From: an uncultured Saprospiraceae bacterium
Lineage (GTDB): Bacteria > Bacteroidota > Bacteroidia > Chitinophagales > Saprospiraceae
Direction of reading: 5' to 3'
Length of the DNA: 64,000 nucleotides
Assembly: GCA_937941765.1 (NCBI GenBank)
Contig: CALDGQ010000011.1
Coordinates: forward strand, 1 to 64,000
Below the pieces are notes generated by a model. That model ran no database searches. It saw only the letters and a program-made list of their open reading frames with translations, and had not been told where the DNA came from. Positions 4,114 to 33,472 of this stretch are shown here, piece by piece (within the stretch, counting starts at the first letter, position 1; each line of letters opens with the position of its first letter). A program made the position numbers and the translations under genes.

Positions 4114-4893
4114 ATGGTTAAATACTTACAGTGTGTATTTTGTTATTTTTTCGTTTGTACTTCATTATTAGCGCAACCGACTTTTACTAGTTCATCTGCA
4201 GACGTAGCGCCTGGAGAGGTATTTACGATTCAAGTTTCAGCTGAAAACTTAGTCAATATCGTTTCTATGCAGTTTTCTCTGGACTGGGATCCGGCTGTAG
4301 TCGATTTTCAAGAAGTTAGAGATTTTTCGATTCCTTCTTTAGGTCTTGGAAATTTTGGAAGTCAACAAGTGGATCAAGGAAGAATTGGAATGAATTGGTA
4401 TGACAATTCGCAAGCGTCACAAGGAATAACTGCACCTGCAACCAACCTTTTTAAATTAGATTTTAAAGCACTTGATGGAATTGTACAAGCAGAAACTGCG
4501 ATTTCCTTTTCAGGAATTCCGGTAGCAATTGAAATAGCAGATACTTCTTTTATGGATATCGGAATGATTCCAGTAAATGGAGTAATCAGTGTGTTAGATC
4601 CGAATGACATAACTGAACTTGAAAATGAGGTAACAACAATTGGTCAAAATGTCCCCAATCCATTTTGTGATGAAACAATAATTCCCATTGAAGTCTCAGA
4701 AAGCAATGAACTTAAAATAGAAATTATAAATCTCACCGGTGCTCAAATTTATGAGCATACGGAATTTATTCATCCCGGACTACATAAAATCAATATTCCC
4801 GGAGATATTTTTCCAGCCAATGGAACCTATCTATATTCTGTATTGATTGGAGAAAAGAAAGTAGCTAAAAAGTTATTTTATAATGGTAAATAA
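4114..4893 (+). CDS. Small cohesin-module protein with T9SS type A sorting domain
   Basis: This protein has 259 residues from the ATG at 4114; an upstream in-frame TTG at 4096 only adds IKKKS before the signal peptide. Signal peptide is about 1-21, ending in LLAQP. One cohesin-like module follows (about 22-165), recognised by VSMQFSLDWDPAVVDFQEV and the final beta-strand region. A C-terminal sorting domain (about 180-259) carries the NVPNPF motif and ends in KKLFYNGK, typical of T9SS type A cargo. It is probably secreted or surface attached. Only 31 bases separate it from the multi-cohesin protein, suggesting one transcript. Cohesins bind dockerins in cellulosomes; the partner here could be any of the four downstream dockerin proteins, which is inference. 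Confidence 0.8.
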   Translation: MVKYLQCVFCYFFVCTSLLAQPTFTSSSADVAPGEVFTIQVSAENLVNIVSMQFSLDWDPAVVDFQEVRDFSIPSLGLGNFGSQQVDQGRIGMNWYDNSQASQGITAPATNLFKLDFKALDGIVQAETAISFSGIPVAIEIADTSFMDIGMIPVNGVISVLDPNDITELENEVTTIGQNVPNPFCDETIIPIEVSESNELKIEIINLTGAQIYEHTEFIHPGLHKINIPGDIFPANGTYLYSVLIGEKKVAKKLFYNGK

Positions 4894-4924
4894 TATTTTT
4901 TCACATCCCACATTCCATGGACAA

Positions 4925-7900
4925 ATGAAAAAGCTAATAACACTTATGTTTTTGGGTTGCTTTGCAGCGACAACGATGTTTGGACAATTGAACATATCCG
5001 CATCGTTTCCCAACCCAGCGCCCGGCGCAACGACCACAGTAGACTTTACTGTGACTGGATTTACAGATATTGTAAGTTCTCAGTTTACACTCAATTATGA
5101 TCCTGCAGTTTTGCAGTACGGTTCCATCAGTTACACCAATCCCGCTTTTAGTGGATTGAGTGCTGCTGCATTTGGAAATCCGAATCCAGGAGTAATTACA
5201 TTCTCTTGGTTTGACAATTCCTTATCAGGAGTTACTGTTGCAGATGGTACCCTGATGTTTTCAATTGACTTTGTTGCAATCGGTGCCGATGGTACCAATT
5301 CAGCAATAACATTTGGAAATTCACCAACCCCAATCGAATTTAGTGACAACAATTTCCAAACATTACCTCCAGGCGATTTCACATTGACGGATGGTAATGT
5401 GCCCGTTGGTTCTGGCGGAGGTGGCAACAATGGTCCATTAGGAACCAGTTTTGCTTGCCCTACTGGTGCTACCGGTGAAAATGTTTGTATCGATGTTGCT
5501 GTAACGGACTTTGAACTAATTCAAGGTTTTCAATACACAGTAGCCTTTGATCCTGCAGTTTTACAATATACGGGAACAGCAGGTTATAATCTTGTTGATC
5601 TTACAGCAGGAAATTTTGGTGACGGAAGCGGTGGTCTTTTGACTGTTTCTTGGAATCAAATAACAAACGCAGGAACTGGGGTTACCGTTGCAGACGGTAC
5701 GGTCATTTATCAAATCTGTTTCAATGTAATTGGAGCTGGAGGAACAAGTAGTACGATCAGTACGACTAATTCACCAACTGCACAAGAAGCTTATCATATA
5801 GATTCTCCTGGTACCAACATTGGTTTGAATGGAACGCCTTGTACATTTTCAACTTCAGGTACTGGAGGAAGTGCATTGTCTATTCAGGCAGGGACTGTCA
5901 GTGGTGAACCTAATTCAACGGTATGTGTCCCATATACGGTGACCAATTTTACAGACATTGTAAGTATGCAGTATGTTATGAATTATGATAATTCTGTTTT
6001 GCAATTTAATTCAGTTATGAATATTAATGCAGGCATTACAGGTATGACACCTTCTTCATTCAATAGTTCAAATCCAGGAACCATCAATTTTAGTTGGTTT
6101 GACAATACAATTCAAGGGGTAACTGTACCAAACGGAACGGTTGCTTACGAAATATGTTTTGACGTCATTGGAACACTTGGAGATTCAAGTCCTTTAAGTT
6201 ATTCTGGATTAATTGAAGCATCACAAAATCAAGGTGGTTCCACGACTACCGTTCCATTAACAACCTTGCCAGGAAGTGTAAGTGTTGTTGGAGCGCCAGG
6301 AGCAAACTTTACAATTGATGCAGCAGAAGTGAATAGTGATGGTGCAACCAATGTTTGTGTACCATTTACTGTACTCAACTTTTCTACAATCATAAGCATG
6401 GAATTTGACATGACTTACGATCCAACTCATCTAGAGTACACTGGTGTTAATGTAACTGGTGCACTACCCGGTTTACAGCCTACTACTAATTTTAACTTAT
6501 TGTCTCCTGGAAATTTGAGACTAGCAAGTTGGACTTCACCAGATCTTACGGTGGGAGAAACACTCGCAGATGGAACTTCGATTTTTGAAGTTTGTTTTGA
6601 TAAATTAGGTACAACTGGAACGAGTAGTATAATCAGTTTTAATCTAAATGGGGTCAATGAAATTGCGATTCCACCAGGTACAGCACTTACTTTAAAAGAT
6701 TTCTTAGACGGAAGTGTTACTTGCACAACAGGCAGTCAACCATTAGATGTAACTTCAGTAGCACCTGTTGTTACACAAATTGATTGTAATGGAAATACAA
6801 CTGGTGCCATCGATGTAACAACTTCTGGTGGTGTTGCACCAATTACTTACTCATGGGTAGGAAGTAGTGAAACGACAGAAGATTTAACAAACTTAGGTCC
6901 TGGAACTTATACACTGACTGCGATGGATGGAACAGGAGCAACTGCTTCTACATCTGCTATCGTAATCAATGCAGCGCCTGGTGCTATTACCACAACCGAT
7001 GTGGTTACAGATGAAATGAGTGCTGGTGCAAATGATGGAGCAATCAATTTAACAACAGCAGGTGGGACCGCGCCATATGCTTGGTCATGGGACAATACAC
7101 CGGCAGGAACAACAGAAGATATCTCAGGATTAGCTCCTGGTAATTATAATGTTACAGTTACTGATGCCAACATGTGTACGATGACTTTTGGACCTTTTAC
7201 AGTAGCACCTTTTATGGCTGCACTTACAATTGATCCAACCACATCTACTGTTGTTGATATTGAATGTTTTGGCGAAATGACTGGATCCATTACTTTGGCA
7301 GTTACAGGTGGCGCAACTCCTTATAGTTACTCATGGAGTTCGAATGGAGCAACTAGCAATCCATTATTAAATATTGGAGCTGGTAACTACAGTGTTACAG
7401 TAACAGATAGTGCTGGCGCAACCGCTACAGAAACTTTTACGGTCAATGAATTAGCAACCGCTGCACTTGATTGCTCCGTTGCAAATATCACCGATGCTAT
7501 GGGAGGCAATAACGGTGCAATCGATCTAGTACCTTCAGGAGGTACAACTCCGTATTCTTATAACTGGAGTAATGGTCAAACAACAGAGGACATTTCATCA
7601 CTTGGTGCGGGACTTTATATAGTTACCATCACAGATGATAATGGTTGTACACAAATATGCTCTCATACGGTTAATCAAGCAGATCCATTTGATATTGATG
7701 AAACACTTTCAACAGTAACAAATGCAACTTGCTTAGGGATAAATAATGGTGCTATTAATTTAGCAATTAGTGGTGGAACAATGCCTTATGGTCCTTTCTC
7801 TTGGACGGGTCCAAACGGATACATGGCTACAACACAAAATATAGCTGCATTAGTAGCTGGTACCTATAATGTTACTGCTACCGATGCTTCGGGAGCTACA

Positions 7901-10900
7901 GATATGGCTTCTTTCACAATTACAGAACCTGCGACTGCAATTACAGTTGTAACTACTTCTTTTTCAGATGAGTCGGGTCAAAATGCAAATGATGGATCCG
8001 TCACAGTAAGTGCATCTGGTGGAAGTTCACCTTACTCCTTTCTTTGGAGTAATAATGCAAGTGATTCCAATACAACTACTTCAACTATTTCAGGATTAAC
8101 AGGTGGTTTATATTGTGTTACCGTGACTGACGCAACAGGTGTTTGTACCGAACAAATTTGTCAAACAGTTAACACAATAGTTCCAAACCCAATGGTATTA
8201 ACTTTTACAGTTTCCAATCCAGCATGTAATGGTGGAGATGGAGGTATAAGTGTTGAAGTGACAGGCGGAACACCTAATTATACATATATGTGGGAAGAAA
8301 CTGGAGTTGGACCGATTCCAAACAATGCATTCCCGAATCTTGGTGGAATTGATGTAGGAACTTATGGTCTTACCGTTACAGATGCCAATGGTGTTCAAGC
8401 ATTCGGTTCACAAACTTTAGTAGAACCAGCGGCACTTGTATTAAGTGCGGTTCCAACAAGTTCTAGTGGGACAGATGGATCCATTGAATTGGATATATTT
8501 GGTGGATCACCTGCTTATACACCAATCTCATGGACTGGACCAGCAGGCTTCATGGCAAGTACAGAAGATATTTCAGGACTAGCGCCAGGGCAATATTGTG
8601 TAGAAGTATTTGACGCAAATGGTTGTACGGCAAATTCATGTTATGATGTAACCGCAACAGCTAATCCACCAGTAGTAACAATTGCAGGAACCAATTTAAC
8701 TTGTAATGGTGATAATACGGGAGCAATTACTTTAAATGTTTCTGGCGGTGTCGGAACTCCTACATTTACTTGGAATCCGGATTTAGGAAATACACAAAAT
8801 CCTTCAGGCTTAGCAGCTGGAACCTATGAAGTAACTGTTTCAGATGATAACAATGATACTGCAATTGCTTCAATAACTATAACAGAACCAGCTGCAATCA
8901 TGACAACGGGTCAAACTACTCCCGTTACGAATGGAATGATGAATGGAGCGATTAATATTGTAGTGAGTGGAGGAAGCGGCATGGGCTATACATATTCATG
9001 GACAGGTCCTGCGCCTTTTACAGCAAATACACAAAATATTTCTGGCTTAGCAGCTGGTCAATATATAGTAAACATTGAAGACAGTAATGGTTGTACAACT
9101 ACTGGTATTTACAATGTTATTGAAGATTCAAACGTAGCACCAGTTGTTATCATGGCGAATATGATTCCAGCTGATTGTAATGATGAGAATGGAGCAATTA
9201 CGGTGGGAATCACAGCTGGTACTGGAAATCCAGCCTTTACTTATAACTGGTCAGTACCAGGTGGCGGACCAAACGGACCAACCATTACTGGTTTAAGTGC
9301 TGGTTCCTATGACGTAACCGTAACGGATGCTCAAGGTTTAACAGGAGTTTTACAAGGTATCATGGTTACTGCTGCAACGAATGGTACAAGTATTCCGGCA
9401 ACAGGAGTTACGGTGACTTGTGAATCTGGTAGCTTAAATGATGGACAAGTAAATATTACACCAACAGGTGGCTGTTTACCTTATACTTTCTTATGGAGTA
9501 ATGGTGGTACCACAGAAGATATTACTGGTTTGATTGCAAATGATTATCGAGTAACAATTACCGATGATTGTGGATGTATTTTCGTCTCAGATGATTATAC
9601 AGTTTGTTTTGATGGAGGATCAGTAAGTCCAGCAATCGTTATCGAGGAACCACTTTGTAATGGAGATGCGAATGGAAGTATTATTCTTTCAGTAGATACG
9701 CCAGGTGATTACTCATTTGCTTGGACAGGAACTAGTTCGTCAGGTCCTTCAGCAACAGGATTGGCAGCTGGTACTTATAGTGTTACAATTACTGATGATA
9801 ACAATAATAATGCAGTTGTGTATATGAATACGTGGACATTGGGAGAACCAGATGCAATTGTCATCACAGTAGATGATGTACAACATCAAGGATGTCCTCC
9901 TGGACCAGGTGCAATTTATATTTCAGTGACTGGAGGTACTTTCCCAGTTGGAGTTTCATGGAGTAGTGGGGCAACGTCGCAAGATTTGAATCCAGCCGCA
10001 GTAGGATTTCATCAACCAACCGCTATAGATGCAAATGGATGTTTCTTAGTAGGACCAGATATCGAAGTAACAGATGATCCACCATGTGCAGTAGAAGAAA
10101 TGATTACACCGGTCAACTGTTCCAATGAATGTGATGGTTCGATCGATATCAATGTAGTCGGAGGAACACCAGGCTATACTTTCTTATGGAGTAATGGAGA
10201 CACCTCAGAAGATGTAGCAGGATTATGTGAAGGAGCAATTTCAGTAACAATAACAGATGCTAGTGGATTAGTGAATTCACATACTTATGTGGTAGGTTCT
10301 AATAATAATGGACCTCAATTATCAGGAACAGTTCTACCTTCTTCAGGAAGTGATGGAATGATTGATGTTAGTGTCAGTTTAGGTTCACCTGCTTTTACTT
10401 TTATATGGAGTAATGGAGCAACTACTGAAGATATTTCAAATCTAGCTCCTGGTAACTATAGTGTTACAGTAACAGACGCTAATGGCTGTACAGATACCGA
10501 ATCCTACAATGTAGAATCAACATTGATTGCAGCAGAAGTAACACATGTAGATTGTTTAGGAAATATGAATGGAGCGATTGATATCAGTCCTGCTGGTTCA
10601 TTGATTCCACCACTTACTTACCAGTGGTCTGGACCTAATACAATGGACACGACTCAAGATATCACCAATTTAGAACCTGGTGTTTATACTGTTCAGATTA
10701 CAGATGGCAATGGAACTATTGCTACTAGCTCGTGGACAATCACTGAAGGTTCTGATATCAATATCTCTACTTCAGAAATTAATCCTCCTTCGGACGCTGG
10801 AGCTTCGGATGCAAATGCAACTGCGATTGCAACCAATGGAGCAGAACCATATTCATACTTATGGAGCAATGGTCAAACAACACAAAATTTGACGAATGTG

Positions 10901-11728
10901 TCTGCTGGTTTGTATACGGTAACGATTACTGATGCCAATGGATGTGCAGCGGAAAATTCAATTACTATTTTTGACCCAGTCATTTTTAGTGCTGCCTTAG
11001 ATATAGTAAATACTAGTTGTAATAATTTGGATTGTAATGCAACGGCAACGGTTGTTATAAACGGAAATCCAATACCACCATTGACCTACGAATGGAGTGA
11101 TGGCCAAACAACACAGACGGCAGTAGGACTTTGTGATACTGTTTATACCGTTATTGTTACGGATGCAGATGGAAACTCAACAATGGCTATTGCATCTAAC
11201 TTTGGAGTAGAAGAAATGACAGCTTCTTACGTAACTTCCGATCTAGGCGGCAATCTATATGAGATTATTATTAATGTTGAAGGAGGAACGGCACCATATC
11301 AATATGTTTGGGGAAATCCTCTTGCTGATAATGATGATAATACGGCTGAAGCATCACCTGGTACATACGCTGCTATCATCATGGATGCCAATGGTTGTAC
11401 AGTGACTTTAGATCAAATCTTTGTTTACGATGACACTGAGTGTTTAGACTACCGGCAAGTAATCACACCAAATGATGATGGCTTCAATGATAATTTTGAA
11501 ATGAGTTGTTTGGAAAGATATCCTAACAATGAATTGGAAATTTACTCTCGTTGGGGAGAATTGATGTGGATGGCTGATGGTGATTATAACAACCAGTGGG
11601 AAGGTACCGATTTAGACGGTAAACTCTTACCACAAGGAGGTTACTTCTTCGTATTCAGATATGATGATGACACTTCAGGTACAGTAGAAAGAAAACAAAT
11701 CAAAGGTGCAATTACCTTGTTAAGATAA
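4925..11728 (+). CDS. Giant SprB-repeat adhesin with four cohesin-like modules and type B sorting domain (candidate scaffold)
   Basis: This 2267-residue exported protein is counted from the ATG at 4925 (MKKLITLMFLGCF); an earlier in-frame start at 4883 overlaps the previous gene and precedes the signal peptide. Signal peptide is about 1-20 (ending MFGQ). Four cohesin-like modules lie at about 22-160, 172-308, 316-452 and 458-602, each with a signature like QFTLNYDPAVLQY. About twenty SprB-type repeats follow (about 605-2158), each with GxI, GG-x2-PY-x2-W and TVTDANGC-like strands. The C-terminal 95 residues (TPNDDGFNDNFE, IYSRWGELMW) are the gliding-motility-associated CHU_C / T9SS type B domain. 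SprB in Flavobacterium is a mobile gliding adhesin. This architecture, with N-terminal cohesins, suggests a cell-surface scaffold. The PorP/SprF-like gene follows directly. Confidence 0.85.
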   Translation: MKKLITLMFLGCFAATTMFGQLNISASFPNPAPGATTTVDFTVTGFTDIVSSQFTLNYDPAVLQYGSISYTNPAFSGLSAAAFGNPNPGVITFSWFDNSLSGVTVADGTLMFSIDFVAIGADGTNSAITFGNSPTPIEFSDNNFQTLPPGDFTLTDGNVPVGSGGGGNNGPLGTSFACPTGATGENVCIDVAVTDFELIQGFQYTVAFDPAVLQYTGTAGYNLVDLTAGNFGDGSGGLLTVSWNQITNAGTGVTVADGTVIYQICFNVIGAGGTSSTISTTNSPTAQEAYHIDSPGTNIGLNGTPCTFSTSGTGGSALSIQAGTVSGEPNSTVCVPYTVTNFTDIVSMQYVMNYDNSVLQFNSVMNINAGITGMTPSSFNSSNPGTINFSWFDNTIQGVTVPNGTVAYEICFDVIGTLGDSSPLSYSGLIEASQNQGGSTTTVPLTTLPGSVSVVGAPGANFTIDAAEVNSDGATNVCVPFTVLNFSTIISMEFDMTYDPTHLEYTGVNVTGALPGLQPTTNFNLLSPGNLRLASWTSPDLTVGETLADGTSIFEVCFDKLGTTGTSSIISFNLNGVNEIAIPPGTALTLKDFLDGSVTCTTGSQPLDVTSVAPVVTQIDCNGNTTGAIDVTTSGGVAPITYSWVGSSETTEDLTNLGPGTYTLTAMDGTGATASTSAIVINAAPGAITTTDVVTDEMSAGANDGAINLTTAGGTAPYAWSWDNTPAGTTEDISGLAPGNYNVTVTDANMCTMTFGPFTVAPFMAALTIDPTTSTVVDIECFGEMTGSITLAVTGGATPYSYSWSSNGATSNPLLNIGAGNYSVTVTDSAGATATETFTVNELATAALDCSVANITDAMGGNNGAIDLVPSGGTTPYSYNWSNGQTTEDISSLGAGLYIVTITDDNGCTQICSHTVNQADPFDIDETLSTVTNATCLGINNGAINLAISGGTMPYGPFSWTGPNGYMATTQNIAALVAGTYNVTATDASGATDMASFTITEPATAITVVTTSFSDESGQNANDGSVTVSASGGSSPYSFLWSNNASDSNTTTSTISGLTGGLYCVTVTDATGVCTEQICQTVNTIVPNPMVLTFTVSNPACNGGDGGISVEVTGGTPNYTYMWEETGVGPIPNNAFPNLGGIDVGTYGLTVTDANGVQAFGSQTLVEPAALVLSAVPTSSSGTDGSIELDIFGGSPAYTPISWTGPAGFMASTEDISGLAPGQYCVEVFDANGCTANSCYDVTATANPPVVTIAGTNLTCNGDNTGAITLNVSGGVGTPTFTWNPDLGNTQNPSGLAAGTYEVTVSDDNNDTAIASITITEPAAIMTTGQTTPVTNGMMNGAINIVVSGGSGMGYTYSWTGPAPFTANTQNISGLAAGQYIVNIEDSNGCTTTGIYNVIEDSNVAPVVIMANMIPADCNDENGAITVGITAGTGNPAFTYNWSVPGGGPNGPTITGLSAGSYDVTVTDAQGLTGVLQGIMVTAATNGTSIPATGVTVTCESGSLNDGQVNITPTGGCLPYTFLWSNGGTTEDITGLIANDYRVTITDDCGCIFVSDDYTVCFDGGSVSPAIVIEEPLCNGDANGSIILSVDTPGDYSFAWTGTSSSGPSATGLAAGTYSVTITDDNNNNAVVYMNTWTLGEPDAIVITVDDVQHQGCPPGPGAIYISVTGGTFPVGVSWSSGATSQDLNPAAVGFHQPTAIDANGCFLVGPDIEVTDDPPCAVEEMITPVNCSNECDGSIDINVVGGTPGYTFLWSNGDTSEDVAGLCEGAISVTITDASGLVNSHTYVVGSNNNGPQLSGTVLPSSGSDGMIDVSVSLGSPAFTFIWSNGATTEDISNLAPGNYSVTVTDANGCTDTESYNVESTLIAAEVTHVDCLGNMNGAIDISPAGSLIPPLTYQWSGPNTMDTTQDITNLEPGVYTVQITDGNGTIATSSWTITEGSDINISTSEINPPSDAGASDANATAIATNGAEPYSYLWSNGQTTQNLTNVSAGLYTVTITDANGCAAENSITIFDPVIFSAALDIVNTSCNNLDCNATATVVINGNPIPPLTYEWSDGQTTQTAVGLCDTVYTVIVTDADGNSTMAIASNFGVEEMTASYVTSDLGGNLYEIIINVEGGTAPYQYVWGNPLADNDDNTAEASPGTYAAIIMDANGCTVTLDQIFVYDDTECLDYRQVITPNDDGFNDNFEMSCLERYPNNELEIYSRWGELMWMADGDYNNQWEGTDLDGKLLPQGGYFFVFRYDDDTSGTVERKQIKGAITLLR

Positions 11729-11761
11729 AATTATTATCCCGGAATATTAAATATAAGAGAA

Positions 11762-12776: not shown

Positions 12777-13321
12777 CATTTAACCCAGTCTTATTCCTAG
12801 AATATATTGTACGTTTTATTGAAAATAGAAATGAAAGGAGTAATCCATTTTTATTTTCTAACATACATATTTCATACTACTTCACTTCCTTACCCATCCA
12901 AAATAATTTCTATCTGATAATTACGTGCATACGGGTATTTCTATCAGGACACTTATTGTTTAAATTGATATAAAATACCGACAAATGATTTTTAAAACTT
13001 TAATCTTCTTATTTATTGTAATGTTGTTTGTAGAGATTCGTAAAGATTCTCCAGACAGTTACCAAGAGTAATGCAACAACAAAAGAAAGGACAACACTGA
13101 TTCCAGTCTTGATTACAAAACGTTAACCCTCTAACGTTATTCCTTTAGTTCTCAAATAACCGATCTCCCCACTTATCTCCCACGCATCCTCCATTTTCAA
13201 TTCCACGGTTAATTTATTCTCGTACATAACTTGTTATGTATGGCGTTTTAATTTGAAATCTTATCAAGTAGCTTGCTTGATATTTATTAATAATTTTTTT
13301 TATAACCAAAACTTTCATCCC

Positions 13322-23566: not shown

Positions 23567-23736
23567 AATTCCTAGAACATATTAAACTAATTTATTCATT
23601 ATAAAACCCTCTTTGCCTATGATTTAAACCGAAATTACACCTTGGCTAAGCAAACTACCTTGAACACCATCTCACTCTAGTTGAAAAAAATTTCATGGTC
23701 CCCCCATATTATTTTTTTACCTCTAAAACATTAATA

Positions 23737-26700
23737 ATGATAGAGAAAACTAGAAAAAAACAGCAGCGTCCTTGCATGCAAAAAAATTGTATTCAAAGAA
23801 TGCTTCCTGTTTTGTTATTTAATTTTTTGTTGTTTTTTACAACAACACTTTCTGCACAAGTATGTGCACCGCCAACTTCACATGCAAGTATTTTTGATAT
23901 TGCTAGTGATTGTGCAATTCAACGAAATGTTACAGATGGAAATGCCTACAATTTGTCGGTAGATCCGAATGTTACTTATTCATTTACAGTTTGTGATCCG
24001 AATTATACTACAGGTGGATCTCAACCGTATTTAGAACTTTGGGATGCTCCAAATGGGAATTTCCTTGCGCTTTCTACAGCAACCAATGGATGTGCAACTG
24101 TTACACATTCCAATTGTACACCGATTCAAGATTACTCATTATTTGTGCATACACAACATGGTACTAGCATGTGCGATGTGGATAATGCCAATTACGAATT
24201 TACTTCTACTTGTACACCGAATACTTTTACATGTCCAACAACAGCGACTCCTTTCAAGATTTCTGTTTCAGGAGCTTCTTGTTGTTATAGTGGATTGATT
24301 CCATTACCAGATTTGTCAACTATTGGTTGCCAGAATGCGGCAACATTAGCAATTGCATATACTGATTGCTCAGGAATTATAATGACTAATAACATTCCAT
24401 TGCCGGATGCAGACAATGCAGTATTGGCTGAATTACCTTTAGGTGTTAATAATGTTGATTACACGGTTACCGTTAATGGAGTTGCAGTCACATGTACTTC
24501 TATTATAACCGTAACTAAATCGATTGCTTGTAATGCAAATATGGTTGTTGCATTAGGAGCAGATTGTAAGACAACGATTGATCCTAGTACTTTGTCATCA
24601 CAGACCTGTATGGGAGTAGATTATGACGTTACTTATACTGTAAATGGAGTGGCAGTTGACACTTTAAGAAGTGAACATTTGAGTTCAATAAATATTGTTG
24701 CAACCGTAACAGATCCTCATGGAAATAATTGTTCTTCAAATATTGATTTGCAAGATAATTTAGGACCCAAATTAGTTTGTCCAGTAGATGTAGTTTTGAC
24801 TTGTGGTCAATCCACAGATATTGCCAATACAGGTGGAATGGCTACGGCTACAGATTGTTCAGGAATCGATGGAGAAGTTACTTTTTTAGATAGTCGGAGC
24901 CAAGTTGGATGTGGAGAAGAAATAATTAGAACTTTTTATGCTACAGATAAGAATGGTGTAACCGCATCTTGCCAGCAAACGATTACGTTGCAACCAATTA
25001 ATTTAATGGATGTTGAACCACCTTCAAACTACATTGATGCTACTGCTACAGGACCAAACGAAATGGTTTTGTCATGTACAGATTTTCCAATTACATCATT
25101 ACCAGGAGTTGAAGATGTTGGTGGATTAACCATTAATGGAATTTTACTTTCTACTGGAATGAATTGTCAATATTTAGTTTCAAAAAGTGATGAAGTAGTT
25201 GAAATATGTGGAGGTGCCTATGATTTGATACGTACTTGGTCTATTTCGGATTGGTGTAATACGCCACCATCAACAACTAATTACGTTCAATACATCAAAG
25301 TAAAAGATTCAGAGGGACCAGTCGGTACTGCAGGTACTGCTTCATTTGAAAACGAAATGCTGTCATGTGAAAGTACTGTTGAGGTTGGAGCTGCAAGTTT
25401 TACAGATAGTTGTTCTCCAATTGTTGCGACAAATTACACCGTAAGTTTGACTGGTTCAGGAACTACGTTTTCATCAGCAATCAATGCAGCTTCAGGTACC
25501 TTTAATAATGTGCCAATGGGTGTTTACAATGTAGAGTGGTGTGCGCAAGATGAGTGTGGAAATGAAGGTTGTGTTACTAGTGCATTGACAATTGTAGATG
25601 ATTCATCTCCATTAGCGGTTTGTGGGCCTAAAACCATTTCAATTAATAATAGTAGTTCTATTTCATTTTGTGCTACTGCATTTGATGGTGGAAGTACAGA
25701 TAATTGTGGAATTGCTGCTTACAAAGTAAAAAGAATGGATGCTGCATCTACCGTTGATTTTACGGATTGTGTTTCATTATCTTGTTCGGATACGGATGCA
25801 CCTGTAGCATTGAGATTGAGAGTGTATGATGTGTTAGGAACCTATGTAGCTAGTGACGATATTCCTGAAGCTGCAACGGGTGTAAGATTTACAGAATGTA
25901 TGTCTACTGTTACAGTTGATGATAAAACTTGTCCAACTTGCCCGGCTTTTCCAGATGTAGCGATTACTTGTAATCAACAAATCACAGACGGAGTTGGATA
26001 TGTAGTTGATCCAAGTATTGAAGGAACTGGTGCAGGGGAGTTAAATGAGAATACAGACAATTGCAATATGTTTGCATATGCAGACGGTGGCTTGACTGAT
26101 AGTAATGGAGCTGTAATTACTGAACTGCCAACATGTGGAGGAGTGATTTACAAAAATTGGATTTTGACTGCATCTAATAATGCAGATTGTGCTGCTCAGA
26201 CTTGTCAGCAACGGATCAATATTTCTGCTACTACATGGGATGGCAATGCGATTGTAAATGGTGTGCCAAATATTGCTTGGCCTGTTGATGTGACAGTAGA
26301 TTGTGATGCACTAACAACTGCAACTACAGAACCTGTTTTGTCGAATATTGATGATGCATGTGGATTTGTTTTTACAAGTTTAGCGAATGAAAAAATCCAT
26401 AACAGTATAAATGGAGGTTGCCAAAGAATATTGAGAACATGGAAAGTTGTTGATGAATGTGCCACGGATCCATTAGATCCTACTGCGGGTGTTTATACGC
26501 AAGATCAAGAGATAACGGTTAATGACAATATCGATCCAGTATTGCCAGCCTTGAGTGATTTAACCGTTGAATGTAACACAACATTTCCTTTACCTGATTT
26601 GCCAGTTGCAACTGATAATTGTGACGATTCAGTAACCGTAACTTCAGATCAGAATACAATTTTTGGAGCACCAGATGCTAGTGGCAATTATTCAGCTGCA

Positions 26701-28890
26701 GTAGGAACTTATACGGTTACTTATACTGCTACCGATAATTGTAACAATACAGTTTCAGAGTCAATTACAGTAACTATAGGTGATTTTACGGGTCCTGTTG
26801 TTACTTGTTTGGTCGATAATAATCCAATTGATTTAGGTCCTGATTGTACGGAGTTAGTTACAGCATCTGCGATCGCTTCTGCTGCTGATGTGTGTGATGG
26901 TGCAGATTTGACCGTATTTGTTGAGCGAATTACCGATCCTGCTAATCCGTCTACTACCTTACCAACTACTACCAATGTAACCTTTACTTCTAGTGATATT
27001 ACAACAGGTACGAGTGGAACATTTTATGTACAAGCTTGGGCTGTTGATGCAGCTGGCAATAGTTCGTCTATTGTTTGTTCGATTGCACTTTCTGGACCGG
27101 ATGCTTGTTTTTGTGGAACTGGATTTACATTTGATGTAAATGAAAATTCGTCAGAACCGAATTGTGATTTGGAAGCAACGGTATCAAATTTATTATTTGA
27201 TGGGGCAGCTATTGATGCTGCAGACTATTCAGTAATGTGGGAGTCTAATGCTACTTGTAACAATTTGTTGACATGTGCATATCCAGCAGCAGGGACTTAT
27301 ACCGTTACAGTCTCGCATAATAGCAGACAATGTTCAAATGCAATGTCAGTTACCATAACACAAGACATTGTTGAGATTATTGATCAAACTTCTGACAACT
27401 GTAATACGGGATTAGGAATTGGATCAGTTTTATTGAACAGTGTAAACGTGAATGCTTCTATTTCTAACATTGAATTATTGAATGCTGCTGGAAATAATTT
27501 ACAAGATGGAAATGGGGATGTTGTTTGTGACAACCTCAGCATTGGAGAATTCTGCTCTGGTCAATCTTCAGGAGATTATATCGCCAGAGTAACTTTTGCA
27601 AATGGATGTGTTTACGATAAATTGATCGAGCATAATTGTTCGTTTTTACGTATCGGAGGAATTATTCTAAATGAAGAAGGAGATGAACTTGATGAAGTAA
27701 CGGTAAAAGTTAGTGATGCAGTTACTCCAGTGATAACGGATGAAAGCGGCGCCTACATTTTTGAAACTTTAACAGAAGGAAGCAACTACACCGTCACGCC
27801 AACCAAAAATGTTGATCCGTTAAATGGAGTCACAACTTTTGATTTGGTACTAATCAGTCAACATATCCTAGGAGTTGAATTGTTGGATACGCCATACAAA
27901 TTGATTGCAGCAGATGCTAACAATAGTGGAACCATCACTACACTTGACTTGGTGAAAATTCAGCGATTGATTTTAGGATTGGATAATGATTTTGCACCGA
28001 TTGATTCTTGGTGTTTTGTGGATGGAAGTTTTGCTTTTCCAACACCTACAAATCCGTTCCAAACTACATTCCCAGAAATTTATCCGATCAATAACTTTAC
28101 GGAAGAAATGTTGGATGTAGATTTCGTAGGAGTGAAAATTGGAGATGTAAACGGAACGGCGATTGCCAATAATTTATTACCAAGTGAAACTAGAAGTGAA
28201 GGTACATTGAATTTTGAAATTCAGAATCAGCAATACGAAAGGGGAGAAGCGGTTGAAGTGAACTTCACTAGTGATGCATTTGATTCCATGTTAGGATTCC
28301 AATTTACTTACCAATTTGATAATGATGCTTTAGAATTTGTTGAGGTGAAATCAAATACACTTGAAAATTTAACTTATGAAAACTTTGGATTGAAAAAAGT
28401 AGCAAATGGATTAATCACAGCAAGTTGGTTTAGCCACAAAGCAATTTCATTAGAATCCGAAGACGTCCTATTTACACTAGTATTTAAAGCAAAAGAAAAT
28501 GGAGACTTATCTAATGCTTTTGATATTACATCAGGAATTACAAAGAATGAAATTTACAGTACTATTAATGGATCGATTTCAACATTGTCCATTCATTTAA
28601 ATGTCGATGGTGCCATCGACAATTCCAAAGAAGTGACCTTGTTCCAAAACAGTCCAAATCCTTTTCAAGAATCAACAACGATTCAGTTTTATTTACCAGA
28701 AGCCGATCAAGCATCAATTTTGATATTTGATTATTCAGGAAAATTGGTAACAGAAATAAATCGTGATTTTGAAAAAGGGATGAATGAAATTCTAATTAAT
28801 AAAGAAACACTAAATACATCCGGTGTTTTATTTTATCAATTAGAAACGAAGCAATTTACAGCAACGAAAAAAATGTTAATAGTAGATTAA
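23737..28890 (+). CDS. HYR/Ig-like repeat protein with dockerin, cohesin-like module and T9SS type A domain (paralogue 3)
   Basis: This protein has 1717 residues from the ATG at 23737 (MIEKTRKKQQR); an in-frame ATG at 23695 is also possible. The signal sequence is long, with a charged n-region and hydrophobic core ending LSAQ (about residue 45). The cysteine-rich head resembles that of paralogue 2 (SCCYSGLIPLPDLS against LCCYVGELPLPDFS). HYR-like repeats fill most of 150-1170. The regulatory-like fold begins at about 1305 and dockerin-like loops at about 1358-1420 read NVDPLNGVTTFDL and DANNSGTITTLDL. A cohesin-like module (about 1490-1615, LGFQFTYQFDNDALEF) and a type A sorting domain (about 1634-1717, LFQNSPNPF) end the protein. 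The first residue of dockerin loop 1 is Asn instead of Asp, unlike the other three copies. Confidence 0.82.
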   Translation: MIEKTRKKQQRPCMQKNCIQRMLPVLLFNFLLFFTTTLSAQVCAPPTSHASIFDIASDCAIQRNVTDGNAYNLSVDPNVTYSFTVCDPNYTTGGSQPYLELWDAPNGNFLALSTATNGCATVTHSNCTPIQDYSLFVHTQHGTSMCDVDNANYEFTSTCTPNTFTCPTTATPFKISVSGASCCYSGLIPLPDLSTIGCQNAATLAIAYTDCSGIIMTNNIPLPDADNAVLAELPLGVNNVDYTVTVNGVAVTCTSIITVTKSIACNANMVVALGADCKTTIDPSTLSSQTCMGVDYDVTYTVNGVAVDTLRSEHLSSINIVATVTDPHGNNCSSNIDLQDNLGPKLVCPVDVVLTCGQSTDIANTGGMATATDCSGIDGEVTFLDSRSQVGCGEEIIRTFYATDKNGVTASCQQTITLQPINLMDVEPPSNYIDATATGPNEMVLSCTDFPITSLPGVEDVGGLTINGILLSTGMNCQYLVSKSDEVVEICGGAYDLIRTWSISDWCNTPPSTTNYVQYIKVKDSEGPVGTAGTASFENEMLSCESTVEVGAASFTDSCSPIVATNYTVSLTGSGTTFSSAINAASGTFNNVPMGVYNVEWCAQDECGNEGCVTSALTIVDDSSPLAVCGPKTISINNSSSISFCATAFDGGSTDNCGIAAYKVKRMDAASTVDFTDCVSLSCSDTDAPVALRLRVYDVLGTYVASDDIPEAATGVRFTECMSTVTVDDKTCPTCPAFPDVAITCNQQITDGVGYVVDPSIEGTGAGELNENTDNCNMFAYADGGLTDSNGAVITELPTCGGVIYKNWILTASNNADCAAQTCQQRINISATTWDGNAIVNGVPNIAWPVDVTVDCDALTTATTEPVLSNIDDACGFVFTSLANEKIHNSINGGCQRILRTWKVVDECATDPLDPTAGVYTQDQEITVNDNIDPVLPALSDLTVECNTTFPLPDLPVATDNCDDSVTVTSDQNTIFGAPDASGNYSAAVGTYTVTYTATDNCNNTVSESITVTIGDFTGPVVTCLVDNNPIDLGPDCTELVTASAIASAADVCDGADLTVFVERITDPANPSTTLPTTTNVTFTSSDITTGTSGTFYVQAWAVDAAGNSSSIVCSIALSGPDACFCGTGFTFDVNENSSEPNCDLEATVSNLLFDGAAIDAADYSVMWESNATCNNLLTCAYPAAGTYTVTVSHNSRQCSNAMSVTITQDIVEIIDQTSDNCNTGLGIGSVLLNSVNVNASISNIELLNAAGNNLQDGNGDVVCDNLSIGEFCSGQSSGDYIARVTFANGCVYDKLIEHNCSFLRIGGIILNEEGDELDEVTVKVSDAVTPVITDESGAYIFETLTEGSNYTVTPTKNVDPLNGVTTFDLVLISQHILGVELLDTPYKLIAADANNSGTITTLDLVKIQRLILGLDNDFAPIDSWCFVDGSFAFPTPTNPFQTTFPEIYPINNFTEEMLDVDFVGVKIGDVNGTAIANNLLPSETRSEGTLNFEIQNQQYERGEAVEVNFTSDAFDSMLGFQFTYQFDNDALEFVEVKSNTLENLTYENFGLKKVANGLITASWFSHKAISLESEDVLFTLVFKAKENGDLSNAFDITSGITKNEIYSTINGSISTLSIHLNVDGAIDNSKEVTLFQNSPNPFQESTTIQFYLPEADQASILIFDYSGKLVTEINRDFEKGMNEILINKETLNTSGVLFYQLETKQFTATKKMLIVD

Positions 28891-28981
28891 TTTGGTTGTT
28901 ACTAGCAACTAACCAAAGTAGTTAGATTGTGAAGTAAACCACCTTATTATATATTACTAACTTTTTCAATGCACTAAGGTT

Positions 28982-29027
28982 TGGCCTTCTCATCCGATAG
29001 CTTTCGGAAGGGGAGGCCATTTTTTTA
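28982..29027 (+). terminator. Terminator after paralogue 3
   Basis: TGGCCTTCTC pairs with GGGGAGGCCA (with G-T pairs), with an inner TCCGA/TCGGA step, followed by a T-run. Confidence 0.75.
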
Positions 29028-29533
29028 ACTAAAAAATTTTTCAAAAAAAATAAAAAAAGGATGCATCATATCAATTATTGCTCTATATTTGTCATGACCA
29101 TATATGTAATAGTACAACTTACTTACTGAAGGCAAGAACATATCAATCTTAACTTCGCTGCTACAAAAGTAAAATACAAAAATTAGTCTCATAGCCGAAA
29201 AATGGTACATTACATTAAAAATTGATTTATCAATTTTTGAGAGGGCATAAACCATGAACACGTTAACCCACTCTTTTTCAGTCGATTATCTATCGATTTT
29301 AAAATTCCATTTTTCACGCTACGGTTTTCTATATTCTAAAATGCGCTTACACATTTCAGAATTCTAACATCTAAAGTTACTGTATCCTGTTGTCTCTTTA
29401 CGGACAATAGAATTTTTGCATGTTATCCCATTTACCGAAACGTCGTGTTTCAGTAGATATGATATTTCTGTGCACTTTATGTAAACATGATGTTATTCAA
29501 AAATACTTTTTTAAACCGTATAAATTACTCCTC
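29028..29533. other. Gene-free leader before paralogue 4
   Basis: About 500 bases without a convincing gene. A TATATTTG -7 type element at 29084-29091 has no matching TTG. A short minus-strand open frame at 29025-29261 overlaps the terminator and has no recognisable features. Confidence 0.4.
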
Positions 29534-32500
29534 ATGAAGAATTGCTTTACACTCTTCTGCATTTATGGATTTACAAATACACTTTCAAATAAAAATAAAA
29601 GTGTAAATATAAATTCAACTAAGTTACATAACATCCTTAAGGGAATGGTGTTATTACTCCTTTGCTTTGCAGCTTTTAATCAAGCAAATGCACAAGCATA
29701 CTGTACAATGGCTTGCCACAACCAGGTAAACATTTCAATGGGTACTAACTGCCAGATTGAAATTGGATATGATGTAATGATGCCAGATGGGGACAACCCA
29801 GCATTGTGCTCACCAAATGGACCACAAGCTTATATGGTTTTTATCACTTATCCAGCTGGTACCAATACTTTTGATCCACCAAATATTGTCGATGCTTCTC
29901 ATGTTGGACATAACTTAGAAGTTATGGTAAAACACTGGGCTACGGGAAATACTTGTTGGGGAAATGTATTAATTGAAGATAAGTCACCACCACAAATTAC
30001 ATGTCCTGCGGATATAGTCATTAATTGTTCTGACCCACTTCCAAATGCCAATATACCGAACGCTAATATTTTTGATTGTTCAGCTACGACACAATCGTAC
30101 TCAGACAATGAAGTTGATCTTGGTTGCAACGGAACTTATTCAAGTCAAATAATCAGAACTTATTCTGTTACTGATGCGATGAATAATACGGCAACTTGTA
30201 CTCAAAATATTTATGTGCAAAGAGCAACATTAGCAGATGTTCAACAACCTAATAACTATGATGGTATTGATTATCCTGTTTTATCTTGTGGTTCTCAATA
30301 TGGACCTGATGTCGTTCCTGGCCCATTATTAAACGGAAATGCAATTGTAAATGGAGGTTCATGCGATATTTTATTAACGCACAGTGATCAAGAAATTGAT
30401 TTATGTGGTGGTAGTAAAAAAGTAATCCGTACTTGGACAGTAGTAGATTGGTGTAGTGGTGCAAATACTAATATGGTGCAGTTGATCAATTTAATGGATC
30501 AAACGCCACCTGCAATTACTTGTCCTGCCAATGTGAACTTTGGTTCCAATTCACAAGATTGTAATGGTAGTGTTGTATTTCCACCTGCAACGATCAGTGA
30601 TAACTGTTCAAACCCAGTAGATGTGGTAATCAGTACTTCAGTTGGTTCAATTTCTGGAAATGGTGGTTACCTTTCTGGAATTCCATTAGGAAATCAAACC
30701 GTTACTTATACAGCGACGGATCAATGTGATAACACTTCTTCTTGTTCCATTACAGTTGATATTAATGATAACACGCCTCCAATTCCAGTATGTGATCAAA
30801 ATACAGTTGTTGCACTTTCAGATGGACCCAATGGCGGGACATTAGTTTGCCAACAAACCTTTGACGATGGTAGCTATGATAACTGTGAAATTGTAGTGAG
30901 AGAAATAAAAAGAATGGATGCACCTCCTTCTGTCCAATTTGATGATTGTGTATTGTTAGGTTGTGAAGATGTTGGAACCAACGTAATGATTATTTTCAGA
31001 GTGGCGGATGCTGCTGGAAATTCAAATCAGTGTATGGTGGAAGTAGAAGTACAAGATAAAGGACTTCCAGGATTGGTATGTCCTCCAGACAAATACTTAG
31101 AATGCACACAAGATTATAATGATTTAGGATTGACAAGTGAAGCGGTTGCAACTGACAACTGTGGTGCTGTCGTCACTTTTACAGATGTTCAAACAAACAT
31201 CGACGATTGTGGTGTTGGATATATTAAGAGAAGATGGAGAGCGGAAGACGCGAATGGAAATTTTTCAATCTGCGATCAGAATATTTACTTACAAAATAGC
31301 TATCCATTTACAGAAAACATGATTGTTTGGCCATTAGATCCACCGGCTGTATCTTGTGTAGATGCGTCTACTTTGGATCCTGAAGATTTGGATTCACCAT
31401 ATGATCAACCTACTTATAATGGGGACGTTTGCGATCAAGTATTTAAGTCATACGAAGACAAAATATTTTATGTAACAAACAGCACTTGCTTTGAAATCAG
31501 AAGAGAATGGAAGGTAGTTGATTGGTGTCAATATGATCCTAATTCAGCTTCTCAAACAGGAATTTGGTATCATACACAAACAATAAGTGTTACTGATTCA
31601 GAAGCGCCGACAATCAATGGACCTGCGGATATTGTGATTGCAGCAACAGATAATAGCTGTACATCATCTTATGTCGACATACCAGTAGTAACTGCGACAG
31701 ACTGTAATCCTGATGTGGTTATAACAAATAATTCACCATATGCAACTTCCAATACTGGAGGTGATGCCTCTGGAAATTATCCTTATGGAAATACAACAGT
31801 TACTTTTTTCGCTTCAGATGGATGTGGTAATGTTTCTGAACATGATGTAGTAATTAAAATTACGGATGGGAAAGCACCAACACCTGTTTGCATTGTGGTA
31901 TCAACAGATATTATGTCGACTGGAACAGTTGATCTATGGGCTTCTGACCTTGAATCGGGAAGTAGTTTTGACAACTGTACCGCTTATGATGACTTAACAT
32001 TTACGATACGTATTCTCGAAGATGGAGTACCTCCCTCATCAACCCCACCTACTTCTTCTTCGGTTACGTTCACGTGTGATCACATTGGAAACGTACAATT
32101 GCAAGTATGGGTAGGAGACGAAAGTGGTAACTGGGATTACTGCCAGACTTATGTAAATGTGCAAGATAATTTCAACGCTTGTGGAACGGCTCCTCCTCCT
32201 CAAAACAATGAATATTATATTGCAGGAAGAATTGCTAATGAAGAATCAGATGATGTAGAAGATGTGGAAATGGAAATCAGTAGTGGTTCAACTTCTCCTT
32301 TGATGACAGGCGCAGATGGTGCTTATATGTTTCCTAATTTAGCACCAGGTGCCAACTATACCGTTACACCTGAAAAGGATATCAACCATGGAAATGGAAT
32401 CTCTACTTTTGATTTGATTATTATGCAAAAGCATATTTTAGGAATAGCACCATTGGACTCTCCTTATAAAATTATCGCTGCAGATGTCAATAAATCGGAG

Positions 32501-33472
32501 ACGATTAGTACAGTTGATATTGTAGAATTGAGAAGATTAATTTTAAATCAGATCACAGAATTTACAACGAATACATCCTGGAGATTCGTAGATACAGATT
32601 TTGTATTCCCTAATCCTAACAATCCATTTGAGACGGACTTCCCTGAAGTATTTTCTCTAAATAGTTTGACAGGAGATGTGACGGCTGCGGATTTTGTAGC
32701 GGTCAAAGTGGGAGATTTAAATTGTAGCGCATCACCTAATAACATGGTAGGTACGCAATCAAGAAATGATGAAACAATGACATTTGGTTTGACCACAAAA
32801 GAACTAGCAAATGATCAAATCATGGTTTCATTTACTGCTAAGGAATTTAAAGATATGTTAGGTTATCAATTCGCTTTATCATTTGATACAGAAACCTTGT
32901 CATTTGTTGATGTGATAAAAGGCGATTTACCTAACATAGACACTAATAATTTTGGTTTTTCTTTGTTAAATGATGGTATTATTACCACCAGCTGGAGTAC
33001 TTCAACATCCAATGGAATGGAGGATGGAGAAGTTCTCTTCAGCTTGGTTTTTGATAAACTACAAAAGAATTTACCAAATAGTATTTTTAAATTGGAGTCT
33101 AACATTGTAAATGCAGAAGCTTATCGTCAAAACGAAACTTCTATCACACCATTAGATGTTAACATTGCAATTGAAAATAACAACATTACTACAGAAATTT
33201 TATCTACTACACACTTCAAACTTTATCAGAACAAACCAAACCCATTCGATAACGAAACGGTTATTGGGTTTGACCTTCCGGACGCATCCAATGTCTCAAT
33301 TAAGATATACGATATGTCTGGAAAGGTTCTGAAATTGACCAATGCTGATTTTGAAGCAGGCTACAATGAAGTGACGTTGAGGAAAGATGAAATTGAGACA
33401 ACAGGAATTATCTATTACCAAATTGAAACCGCAACAAATACTGCGACTAACAAAATGGTAATCATTAGATAA
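29534..33472 (+). CDS. HYR/Ig-like repeat protein with dockerin, cohesin-like module and T9SS type A domain (paralogue 4)
   Basis: This protein has 1312 residues from the ATG at 29534 (MKNCFTLFCIYG); an open frame from 29420 would add 38 residues that do not look like a signal peptide. The hydrophobic core before NQANAQAYC (about 36-55) is the probable signal sequence. The head CHNQVNISMGTNCQI resembles paralogue 1 (CNGQVNISLDANGQA). HYR-like repeats run to about 880, a regulatory-like fold starts at about 895, and dockerin-like loops at about 949-1012 read DINHGNGISTFDL and DVNKSETISTVDI. The second loop lacks the usual glycine. A cohesin-like module starts at about 1082 (MLGYQFALSFDTETLSF) and the type A sorting domain at about 1229 (LYQNKPNPF). 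Confidence 0.82.
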   Translation: MKNCFTLFCIYGFTNTLSNKNKSVNINSTKLHNILKGMVLLLLCFAAFNQANAQAYCTMACHNQVNISMGTNCQIEIGYDVMMPDGDNPALCSPNGPQAYMVFITYPAGTNTFDPPNIVDASHVGHNLEVMVKHWATGNTCWGNVLIEDKSPPQITCPADIVINCSDPLPNANIPNANIFDCSATTQSYSDNEVDLGCNGTYSSQIIRTYSVTDAMNNTATCTQNIYVQRATLADVQQPNNYDGIDYPVLSCGSQYGPDVVPGPLLNGNAIVNGGSCDILLTHSDQEIDLCGGSKKVIRTWTVVDWCSGANTNMVQLINLMDQTPPAITCPANVNFGSNSQDCNGSVVFPPATISDNCSNPVDVVISTSVGSISGNGGYLSGIPLGNQTVTYTATDQCDNTSSCSITVDINDNTPPIPVCDQNTVVALSDGPNGGTLVCQQTFDDGSYDNCEIVVREIKRMDAPPSVQFDDCVLLGCEDVGTNVMIIFRVADAAGNSNQCMVEVEVQDKGLPGLVCPPDKYLECTQDYNDLGLTSEAVATDNCGAVVTFTDVQTNIDDCGVGYIKRRWRAEDANGNFSICDQNIYLQNSYPFTENMIVWPLDPPAVSCVDASTLDPEDLDSPYDQPTYNGDVCDQVFKSYEDKIFYVTNSTCFEIRREWKVVDWCQYDPNSASQTGIWYHTQTISVTDSEAPTINGPADIVIAATDNSCTSSYVDIPVVTATDCNPDVVITNNSPYATSNTGGDASGNYPYGNTTVTFFASDGCGNVSEHDVVIKITDGKAPTPVCIVVSTDIMSTGTVDLWASDLESGSSFDNCTAYDDLTFTIRILEDGVPPSSTPPTSSSVTFTCDHIGNVQLQVWVGDESGNWDYCQTYVNVQDNFNACGTAPPPQNNEYYIAGRIANEESDDVEDVEMEISSGSTSPLMTGADGAYMFPNLAPGANYTVTPEKDINHGNGISTFDLIIMQKHILGIAPLDSPYKIIAADVNKSETISTVDIVELRRLILNQITEFTTNTSWRFVDTDFVFPNPNNPFETDFPEVFSLNSLTGDVTAADFVAVKVGDLNCSASPNNMVGTQSRNDETMTFGLTTKELANDQIMVSFTAKEFKDMLGYQFALSFDTETLSFVDVIKGDLPNIDTNNFGFSLLNDGIITTSWSTSTSNGMEDGEVLFSLVFDKLQKNLPNSIFKLESNIVNAEAYRQNETSITPLDVNIAIENNNITTEILSTTHFKLYQNKPNPFDNETVIGFDLPDASNVSIKIYDMSGKVLKLTNADFEAGYNEVTLRKDEIETTGIIYYQIETATNTATNKMVIIR

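Follow-up and report, generated by a model that had tools for sequence, protein, structure and literature searches.

The question raised by the 64,000-nucleotide stretch of DNA analyzed here (the window; positions 1 to 64,000 of contig CALDGQ010000011.1 in GenBank assembly GCA_937941765.1, from an uncultured Saprospiraceae bacterium) is what cohesins and dockerins, the modules of clostridial cellulosomes, are used for in a locus that also encodes SprB repeats and an SprF-like partner. The assembly comprises 6.25 Mb in 154 contigs, is 81.6% complete and carries the window on its contig C11. We propose, with a probability of roughly 0.58, that the locus encodes a cell-surface scaffold, exported by the type IX secretion system (T9SS) and held by SprF, which docks surface fibers and enzymes in trans.

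To define the modules, Pfam matches were judged against the curated cut-offs (Cohesin PF00963, 24.1 bits; dockerin PF00404, 22.9 bits; Por_Secre_tail, 27; trypsin-like domain, 27.6) in two modes, a scan of whole proteins and a six-frame search per stretch, whose scores differ. The scaffold gene (4883..11728, forward strand) encodes four cohesins (5018-5314, 5459-5779, 5882-6247 and 6308-6640 in the six-frame search), about 12 SprB repeats and a CHU_C sorting domain (about 11450-11674), with whole-protein scores of 97.5 bits for Cohesin over four stretches, 356.3 for SprB over 12 stretches and 78.1 for CHU_C. It is preceded by a gene for a small cohesin protein (4114..4893, forward strand), in which a signal peptide recognized by eye, a cohesin (4192-4524) and a T9SS type A C-terminal domain (CTD) follow one another; the open frame spans 4096-4893, the ATG at 4114 gives 259 amino acids, and the frame scores 47.6 bits for Cohesin as a whole protein. 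A PorP/SprF-family outer membrane partner (11762..12700, forward strand; PF11751, 170.5 bits) adjoins the scaffold gene. PorP_SprF and CHU_C both exceed their Pfam cut-offs and SprA is encoded in the genome, so that SprB repeats, CHU_C, the adjoining PorP/SprF gene and SprA are all present, as in a pair of the SprB/SprF type. Several cohesins thus stand on a scaffold whose CHU_C domain points to export.

Four paralogues with HYR repeats follow on the forward strand. Paralogue 1 (13253..17311) consists of HYR repeats, a CnaB-like domain with an apparently inserted dockerin (16235-16402), a cohesin (16658-17005) and a T9SS CTD, as read from Pfam and AlphaFold. Dockerin, cohesin and T9SS CTD were likewise found by Pfam in paralogue 2 (18331..23496; dockerin 22402-22566, cohesin 22813-23151), paralogue 3 (23695..28890; 27829-27972 and 28213-28506) and paralogue 4 (29420..33472; 32378-32545 and 32795-33070). 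The four dockerins score 25.0, 23.2, 20.4 and 22.9 bits in whole proteins and 30.5, 29.2, 25.3 and 27.8 bits per stretch, so that only that of paralogue 3 falls under the cut-off in the former mode (20.4) and none in the latter (25.3 for paralogue 3). The cohesins of the paralogues have diverged (21-36 bits in whole proteins); that of paralogue 4 reaches 21.3 bits in the whole protein, under the cut-off, and 27.7 per stretch, and every cohesin place in the window exceeds 24.1 bits per stretch. Over the whole genome, the six-frame search gave 28 cohesin and 21 dockerin matches. In addition, both modules have sequence matches among solved structures in the PDB: Clostridium cellulolyticum cohesin 1g1k for the scaffold cohesin in 5879-6301 (E 1.7e-5) and adaptor-scaffoldin dockerin 4uyq for the dockerin (E 3.7e-4). 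Because Pfam and these solved-structure sequence matches agree, the cohesin and dockerin calls lie well beyond chance. A preliminary description of the window, made from its letters, had claimed a five-cohesin locus (one in the 259-residue protein, four on the SprB-repeat protein), a dockerin-like module in each of the four paralogues, and T9SS export. Pfam finds all five cohesins and all four dockerins (25.3-30.5 bits per stretch), and the CTDs, the PorP/SprF gene and SprA bear out the T9SS assignment; the profile searches that it had suggested returned significant matches to both families.

Two further scaffolds were found in this genome. One, a 3412-amino-acid protein on contig C67, has six Pfam cohesins (seven with a local profile), 23 HYR repeats and CHU_C, and adjoins a dockerin-cohesin protein and an SprF-like gene. 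The other is cut by a contig end; its three cohesins come after five dockerin-cohesin proteins, with a weak SprF-like match. The C67 protein also illustrates that the whole-protein hmmscan overlooks modules in long proteins, for it listed no cohesin there against six in the six-frame search and seven with the local profile. On contig C44 (L028:4054-10677), three scaffold-type cohesins and then a full dockerin-cohesin cassette lie in one chain, which is a possible adaptor scaffoldin. A cysteine pair is kept in at least 90% of 22 tandem scaffold cohesin pairs and might form a disulfide; by eye, it is seen neither in the first scaffold cohesin of the window nor in its small cohesin.

In every HYR paralogue, the cohesin lies 80-85 residues past the dockerin and ahead of the sorting domain, and the same cassette terminates 19 proteins of this genome. 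Of the 22 dockerin-X profile matches there, 21 were looked at, comprising 19 full cassettes, one trypsin-like protein on contig C18 and one protein cut by a contig end. AlphaFold modeled the CnaB-dockerin-X-cohesin part of paralogue 1 with a predicted local distance difference test (pLDDT) of 94.5 and a predicted template modeling score (pTM) of 0.90 (105 sequences), and the CnaB-dockerin-X part alone with 96.0 and 0.89 (61 sequences). The structure prediction called for by the preliminary description supports a cohesin fold for the cohesin of paralogue 1 (VIA Z 12.3, root-mean-square deviation 2.4, 123 residues aligned to 4ums), and 49 of the 50 matches listed are, by title, cohesins or contain one. 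The N-terminal part resembles the transthyretin-like/CnaB domains of carboxypeptidase D over the range 8..174 (Z 7.8, root-mean-square deviation 2.2, 81 residues aligned to 3mn8), and the dockerin helices occupy residues 73-84, 92-98 and 108-118 of the model. Because only about 55 residues from residue 8 on precede the dockerin, some of the 3mn8-aligned residues must follow it. The dockerin seems to be an insert within a CnaB-like domain, with strands on both flanks completing one domain, a reading based on the aligned range, the 81 aligned residues and the strand positions, where a Z under 8 is only moderate. When the dockerin part was used in the structure search, both result lists were filled by CnaB-like and other beta-sandwich chains.

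The distribution of the modules was then assessed in an even draw of 120 Saprospiraceae genomes. The Pfam cohesin occurs in 112 of them, the dockerin-X profile in 107 (E 1e-10) and tandem scaffold cohesins in 105 (E 1e-20). Both dockerin and scaffold are present in 104 genomes, the dockerin only in three (G003, G103 and G114), the scaffold only in one (G071) and neither in 12 (Fisher p 5e-13), which is the co-occurrence in related genomes that the preliminary description had named as a check. With the nine scaffold matches weaker than 1e-30 set to absent, the counts become 96, 11, 0 and 13 (p 3e-11). In a sample of the class, 8 of 295 genomes match, three of the eight within the family, which reads as 5 of 292 outside it on a listing that puts relatives at the top and includes no family genome without a match. 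The cohesin/dockerin system is a core trait of Saprospiraceae. A tblastn search of viral contigs gave no relative of the paralogue 1 cassette.

The genes recur not only together but, with gaps, in one order: heme peroxidase, lipid A acyltransferase, asparaginase, LuxR, dockerin-cohesin protein, small cohesin-CTD protein, multi-cohesin-CHU_C protein and SprF. Architectures were read with local profiles made from modules of this genome, those for SprF, peroxidase, asparaginase, LuxR and acyltransferase from one sequence each; because these profiles are uncurated, a gene unseen in a relative's stretch may still be present. Among 20 scaffold-centered stretches of relatives, a non-random sample chosen by strong cohesin score, the small cohesin-CTD gene lies ahead of the multi-cohesin gene in 16 and PorP/SprF after the scaffold in 15; L120, L130 and L133 are truncated at one side, L121 and L132 deviate from this pattern (L132 being cut as well), and L129 lacks a scaffold. 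Where loci were found with the cassette alone, the small cohesin gene is present in 8 of 78, and all eight show the order dockerin-cohesin protein, small cohesin-CTD protein, scaffold (two being cut after the scaffold start), with SprF next in six (the other two cut) and a LuxR gene upstream in six (the other two starting inside the dockerin gene). Another 15 stretches were centered on the peroxidase and chosen where peroxidase and scaffold share a contig among the matches listed, again not at random; they contain asparaginase in nine, the LuxR gene in 11 and the acyltransferase in five. Asparaginase is present in several scaffold-centered stretches as well, and an acyltransferase relative occupies the same place in L134, L139, L144, L145, L148, L059, L075, L104, L113 and L114. 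In the one-contig genome G062, the row reads peroxidase, dockerin-cohesin protein, small cohesin, scaffold and SprF, the other three genes not standing between.

The number of modules varies. Scaffolds complete to CHU_C carry 3-10 cohesins (25 entries including the window, with the C67 scaffold entered twice), the fewest being two (L145, in the peroxidase-centered set), and mostly one or two dockerin-cohesin proteins stand beside the scaffold within the stretches retrieved from relatives. The preliminary description had suggested that the four scaffold cohesins may each hold one of the four paralogues; that one-to-one pairing was discarded in view of the 2-10 cohesins of relatives' scaffolds and the 22 dockerin-profile matches in this genome. 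Its plain division into scaffold and clients is not supported either, since each paralogue has a cohesin, overlooked there, besides its dockerin.

A different source of evidence is found in dockerins on chains without a cohesin. The C18 protein consists of a signal peptide recognized by eye, a trypsin-like domain (21.2 bits, cut-off 27.6) and a dockerin, followed by the stop, and this copy keeps the conserved helix-1 residues of the dockerin. Relatives whose match reaches at least residue 591, which lies past the dockerin, occur in 60 of the 120 family genomes, this one included; their open frames have 562-702 amino acids, the dockerin being the last module and leaving no space for a cohesin behind it. 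Similarly, five dockerin proteins of G062 stop at the dockerin-X part (L162, L170, L174 and two in L176). These dockerin-ended proteins argue most strongly for action of the dockerin in trans. In the same genome, 13 of 19 aligned cargo parts of giant dockerin-cohesin proteins (L150-L175, L135) are 74-95% identical to the first, which matched no Pfam family, and they are spread across the genome; the Pfam results for this cargo comprise the first 25 of the 45 families matched, with a 4389-amino-acid cargo omitted for its size and the 6570- and 13315-amino-acid frames covered in part. Another dockerin gene of G062 (L177:446-6151) is broken by a stop codon or frame change into two half matches.

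Enzymes are also found among the locus genes and the dockerin proteins. In the same-genus genome G079 (L134), a peroxidase with the CnaB-dockerin-X-cohesin-CTD cassette is followed by the lipid A acyltransferase, asparaginase, LuxR and small cohesin genes. In the present genome, a peroxidase stops 389 bases before contig C78 ends, whereas the first gene of the window is the acyltransferase. The C78 tail and the window head align to neighboring parts of L134 (11765-14931 and 15124-16016), and the two contig ends have no exact overlap of at least 15 bases; the peroxidase probably adjoins the window across a contig break. The C78 protein combines An_peroxidase (489.8 bits) and a dockerin (28.9 bits) in one chain, as peroxidockerins do, and shows the motifs QxxDHD, REHN and FRLGHTL, which we take to be typical of the animal peroxidase family. 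A match from the peroxidase through to the sorting domain (start at or before residue 26, end at or after 922 of 971) occurs in 38 of the 120 family genomes, and eight of the peroxidases in the 15 peroxidase-centered stretches have the cassette. No glycoside hydrolase family was found among 22 scanned dockerin proteins of this genome (Pfam, E 1e-3; the contig-cut L033:11073-16910 unscanned) in whole-protein scans, which overlooked some modules in long proteins. The claim of a scaffold without enzymes is therefore kept as regards glycoside hydrolases in the proteins scanned, and it fails because of the heme peroxidase that recurs in relatives' loci and the dockerin-tipped trypsin-like protein in 60 of 120 genomes. 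The preliminary interpretation is thus supported in part: the modules, the T9SS CTDs, PorP/SprF and SprA speak for it, whereas the four-to-four pairing, the scaffold/client split and the lack of enzymes are not supported. A protein on contig C54 (L030:6317-8761, contig-cut) combines a lysyl oxidase domain (109.7 bits), a classical dockerin (20.4 bits in the whole protein, 23.5 per stretch) and a cohesin-like stretch seen by eye; besides the peroxidase, it is a second oxidizing enzyme on a dockerin chain.

The sequence data show the modules, the recurring order of genes, their co-occurrence across the family, two cohesin groups by sequence and a dockerin under strong conservation; from these we infer binding, the docking direction, the surface location and the role of the system as follows. 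The CHU_C domain would direct the SprB-repeat protein through the T9SS, and the SprF partner would hold this protein at the outer membrane with its four cohesins displayed, as the likeness to SprB/SprF suggests. The dockerins of other exported proteins would plug into these cohesins in trans, the clients being giant fibers with HYR/Ig-like repeats, the heme peroxidase adjoining the locus in relatives, where it bears a dockerin, and the dockerin-tipped trypsin-like protein. Each HYR protein and roughly half of the peroxidases at the locus also have one cohesin of a separate class; it could bind one more dockerin protein, and such extra docking might give layers or branches. The outcome would be a coat or adhesive matrix made of protein, on which the tethered enzymes act. 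Dockerin-ended proteins might have their carrier in the small cohesin-CTD protein. A more elaborate idea, which we regard as improbable, makes the dockerin an export pass. Proteins with a signal peptide and a terminal dockerin but no CTD (the trypsin-like protein of 60 of 120 genomes and further dockerin-ended proteins) would bind in the periplasm to the small cohesin-CTD protein, itself hardly more than a cohesin fused to a sorting domain, and the complex would cross the T9SS with its cargo folded. At the surface, the cargo would be handed to the multi-cohesin scaffold, and there the tethered peroxidase would oxidatively cross-link HYR fibers into a coat.

Several observations weigh against trans docking on such a scaffold. 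The Por_Secre_tail match of the small cohesin protein (24.1 bits) lies under the cut-off of 27, as it does in three of the four paralogues. The canonical dockerin calcium loop follows a DxNxDGxxxxxD-like pattern; in the 105-row alignment only loop 2 (DANNSGTITTLD) is such a standard loop, and loop 1 (DVNPLNGVTTFD) is degenerate, without the acid at position 5 and with L there in 71% of the rows, which is why the module is classed as dockerin-like by profile. The Fisher test of co-occurrence takes no account of shared ancestry, and G103 has 11 dockerin matches with no tandem scaffold match. The peroxidase lacks a dockerin in 7 of the 15 loci having both genes. The dockerin-ended proteins have neither cohesin nor sorting domain, and for want of the latter their export is unexplained. 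Finally, the cassette cohesin appears to be confidently placed against the rest of its chain, judging from the pTM of 0.90 for the four-part module, and it may bind the dockerin of its own chain or obstruct it.

That last point leads to the main rival, which owes its standing to the high pTM and which we still consider unlikely: each cassette dockerin would be clamped by its own cohesin in cis into a rigid stalk before the sorting domain, and the scaffold cohesins would bind something else. Of the 21 proteins looked at in this genome that have this type of dockerin, 19 indeed show dockerin and cohesin in fixed order and spacing, and among the 115 dockerin proteins in L036-L133, L121 alone lacks a cohesin among those uncut at the end. 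The pTM of the four-part module is moreover no lower than the 0.89 of the CnaB-dockerin part. The cassette cohesins also cluster apart from scaffold cohesins. In the best tree of 134 cohesin sequences, built on few columns, the cis (cassette) cohesins fall on one side with support of 41/39, a value held down by one very long row, and 53 of 54 of them cluster at 97/69. The tree left out cis matches of up to 110 residues, scaffold matches of up to 60 bits, the loci before L032, and L033, L128 and L129; it drew at random 50 of 117 non-window cis rows plus 50 non-window multi-cohesin rows and kept all rows labeled small, one of which, S1_L087_8977, is a truncated scaffold start. The two groups thus appear to separate weakly, as different binding classes would. 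However, clamping in cis does not sit well with the cohesin-free dockerin chains, which recur as the trypsin-like protein in 60 of 120 genomes, the five proteins of G062 and L121, nor with the neighborhood and co-occurrence of dockerin and scaffold. The dockerin is also far more conserved than the cis cohesin: across the 105 rows, mean column entropy is 1.24 bits in the dockerin, the most conserved part of the cassette, 1.55 in the X part, 2.28 in the cohesin and 2.39 in CnaB, and the invariant columns include H82, G70, D75, P92, D99 and D110.

It is less probable still that the cohesin and dockerin folds are structural modules only, Ig-like and calcium-stiffened rigid spacers of adhesins that do not bind each other. 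The abundance of other beta-sandwich repeats (HYR, SprB, PKD) in these proteins, the degenerate loop 1 and the divergence of the paralogue cohesins would suit such spacers, whereas the near-invariance of parts of the dockerin surface across genera, the tight co-occurrence with multi-cohesin proteins and the arrangement of scaffold cohesins in sets of 2-10 within a recurrent operon would not. Highly improbable is a gliding function, in which the SprB-repeat/SprF pair would be a motility adhesin with cohesins as sugar- or surface-binding heads and the HYR proteins independent adhesins: its SprB repeats, CHU_C domain and adjoining PorP/SprF gene match the SprB/SprF layout, the basis of the likening, but the dockerins, the conserved small cohesin-CTD neighbor gene and the co-occurrence are left unaccounted for. 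The trans scaffold accounts for more than either of these two readings.

Among known systems, the clostridial and ruminococcal cellulosomes (CipA, ScaA/ScaB) share with this locus an exported multi-cohesin protein, dockerins on other proteins, and proteins with both modules, which their adaptor scaffoldins carry as well. Cellulosome scaffoldins are anchored by LPXTG or the S-layer, whereas this locus has T9SS export and an SprF partner; its cargo consists of HYR/Ig fibers, a heme peroxidase and a trypsin-like protein, and its dockerin is seemingly inserted in a CnaB-like domain. With no dockerin-bearing glycoside hydrolase among the 22 scanned proteins, the locus would work like a cellulosome but fails the enzyme test of one. 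In X-module-dockerin dyads (the type II dyad of CipA and those of Ruminococcus), an Ig/CnaB-like module is joined to the dockerin as here; there it is a neighbor, whereas here the dockerin looks inserted within the CnaB/transthyretin-like domain. The noncellulosomal cohesins of Archaeoglobus and Clostridium perfringens (2xdh and 2jh2 being among the fold matches) likewise lie outside cellulose degradation, but those modules belong to single secreted enzymes or lack an assigned function, in contrast to the recurrent multi-gene locus described here. Flavobacterium SprB/SprF has SprB repeats, CHU_C and an adjoining PorP/SprF gene in common with the locus, which differs in its four N-terminal cohesins, the preceding small cohesin-CTD gene and the dockerin proteins alongside; PMC3796261 describes a role of SprB in gliding. 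Bacterial peroxidockerins are named as Family 6 of the peroxidase-cyclooxygenase superfamily, from which the line to animal peroxidases begins, in PMC4420034; likened by domain content, they share an animal-type heme peroxidase and a dockerin in one bacterial protein, and differ from the present case in the cohesin scaffold that stands beside the peroxidase gene in relatives.

The presence of cohesins in Saprospiraceae is not new, because the consulted part of PMC8547425 reports cohesin-related genes in one genome, MAG096 from Posidonia banquettes, and interprets them, along with SLH domains, as parts of a cellulosome that degrades cellulose; that part mentions no locus, T9SS or peroxidase link. 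The Bacteroidetes covered by PMC5831590 and PMC6247017 are reported, in the sections consulted, to be without cohesins, dockerins or scaffoldins. No description of this locus was found in searches of one open-access library.

Other genes of the window lie on both sides of the system. At its head stand the lipid A acyltransferase-like gene (212..1078, reverse strand; PF03279, 117.2 bits), an Asparaginase_2-family gene (1247..2230, forward strand; PF01112, 228.6 bits) and, upstream of the cohesin/dockerin genes, a LuxR-type response regulator (2564..3322, forward strand; Response_reg 77.9 and GerE 74.7 bits). The asparaginase and acyltransferase genes recur next to the scaffold locus across genera. 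Directly after the fourth paralogue, 34069-34896 encodes a 275-amino-acid cysteine-rich EGF-like protein with a lipoprotein-like signal seen by eye. Further on, 48121-56610 encodes a protein of 2829 amino acids that carries some 14 SdrD_B domains plus a T9SS tail and in which the Pfam scan found neither cohesin nor dockerin.

What has emerged is a multi-gene cohesin-dockerin surface locus that recurs throughout most of a large family, with no glycoside hydrolase among the dockerin proteins scanned in this genome. Docking and the peroxidockerin partnership are open to test in Phaeodactylibacter xiamenensis KD52, a cultured relative that has the cassette (L091). If our proposal is true, the locus would be a source of new cohesin-dockerin pairs, bacterial peroxidockerins would gain a plausible partner, and the cohesin-dockerin plug would also build a Gram-negative surface coat by way of the T9SS.

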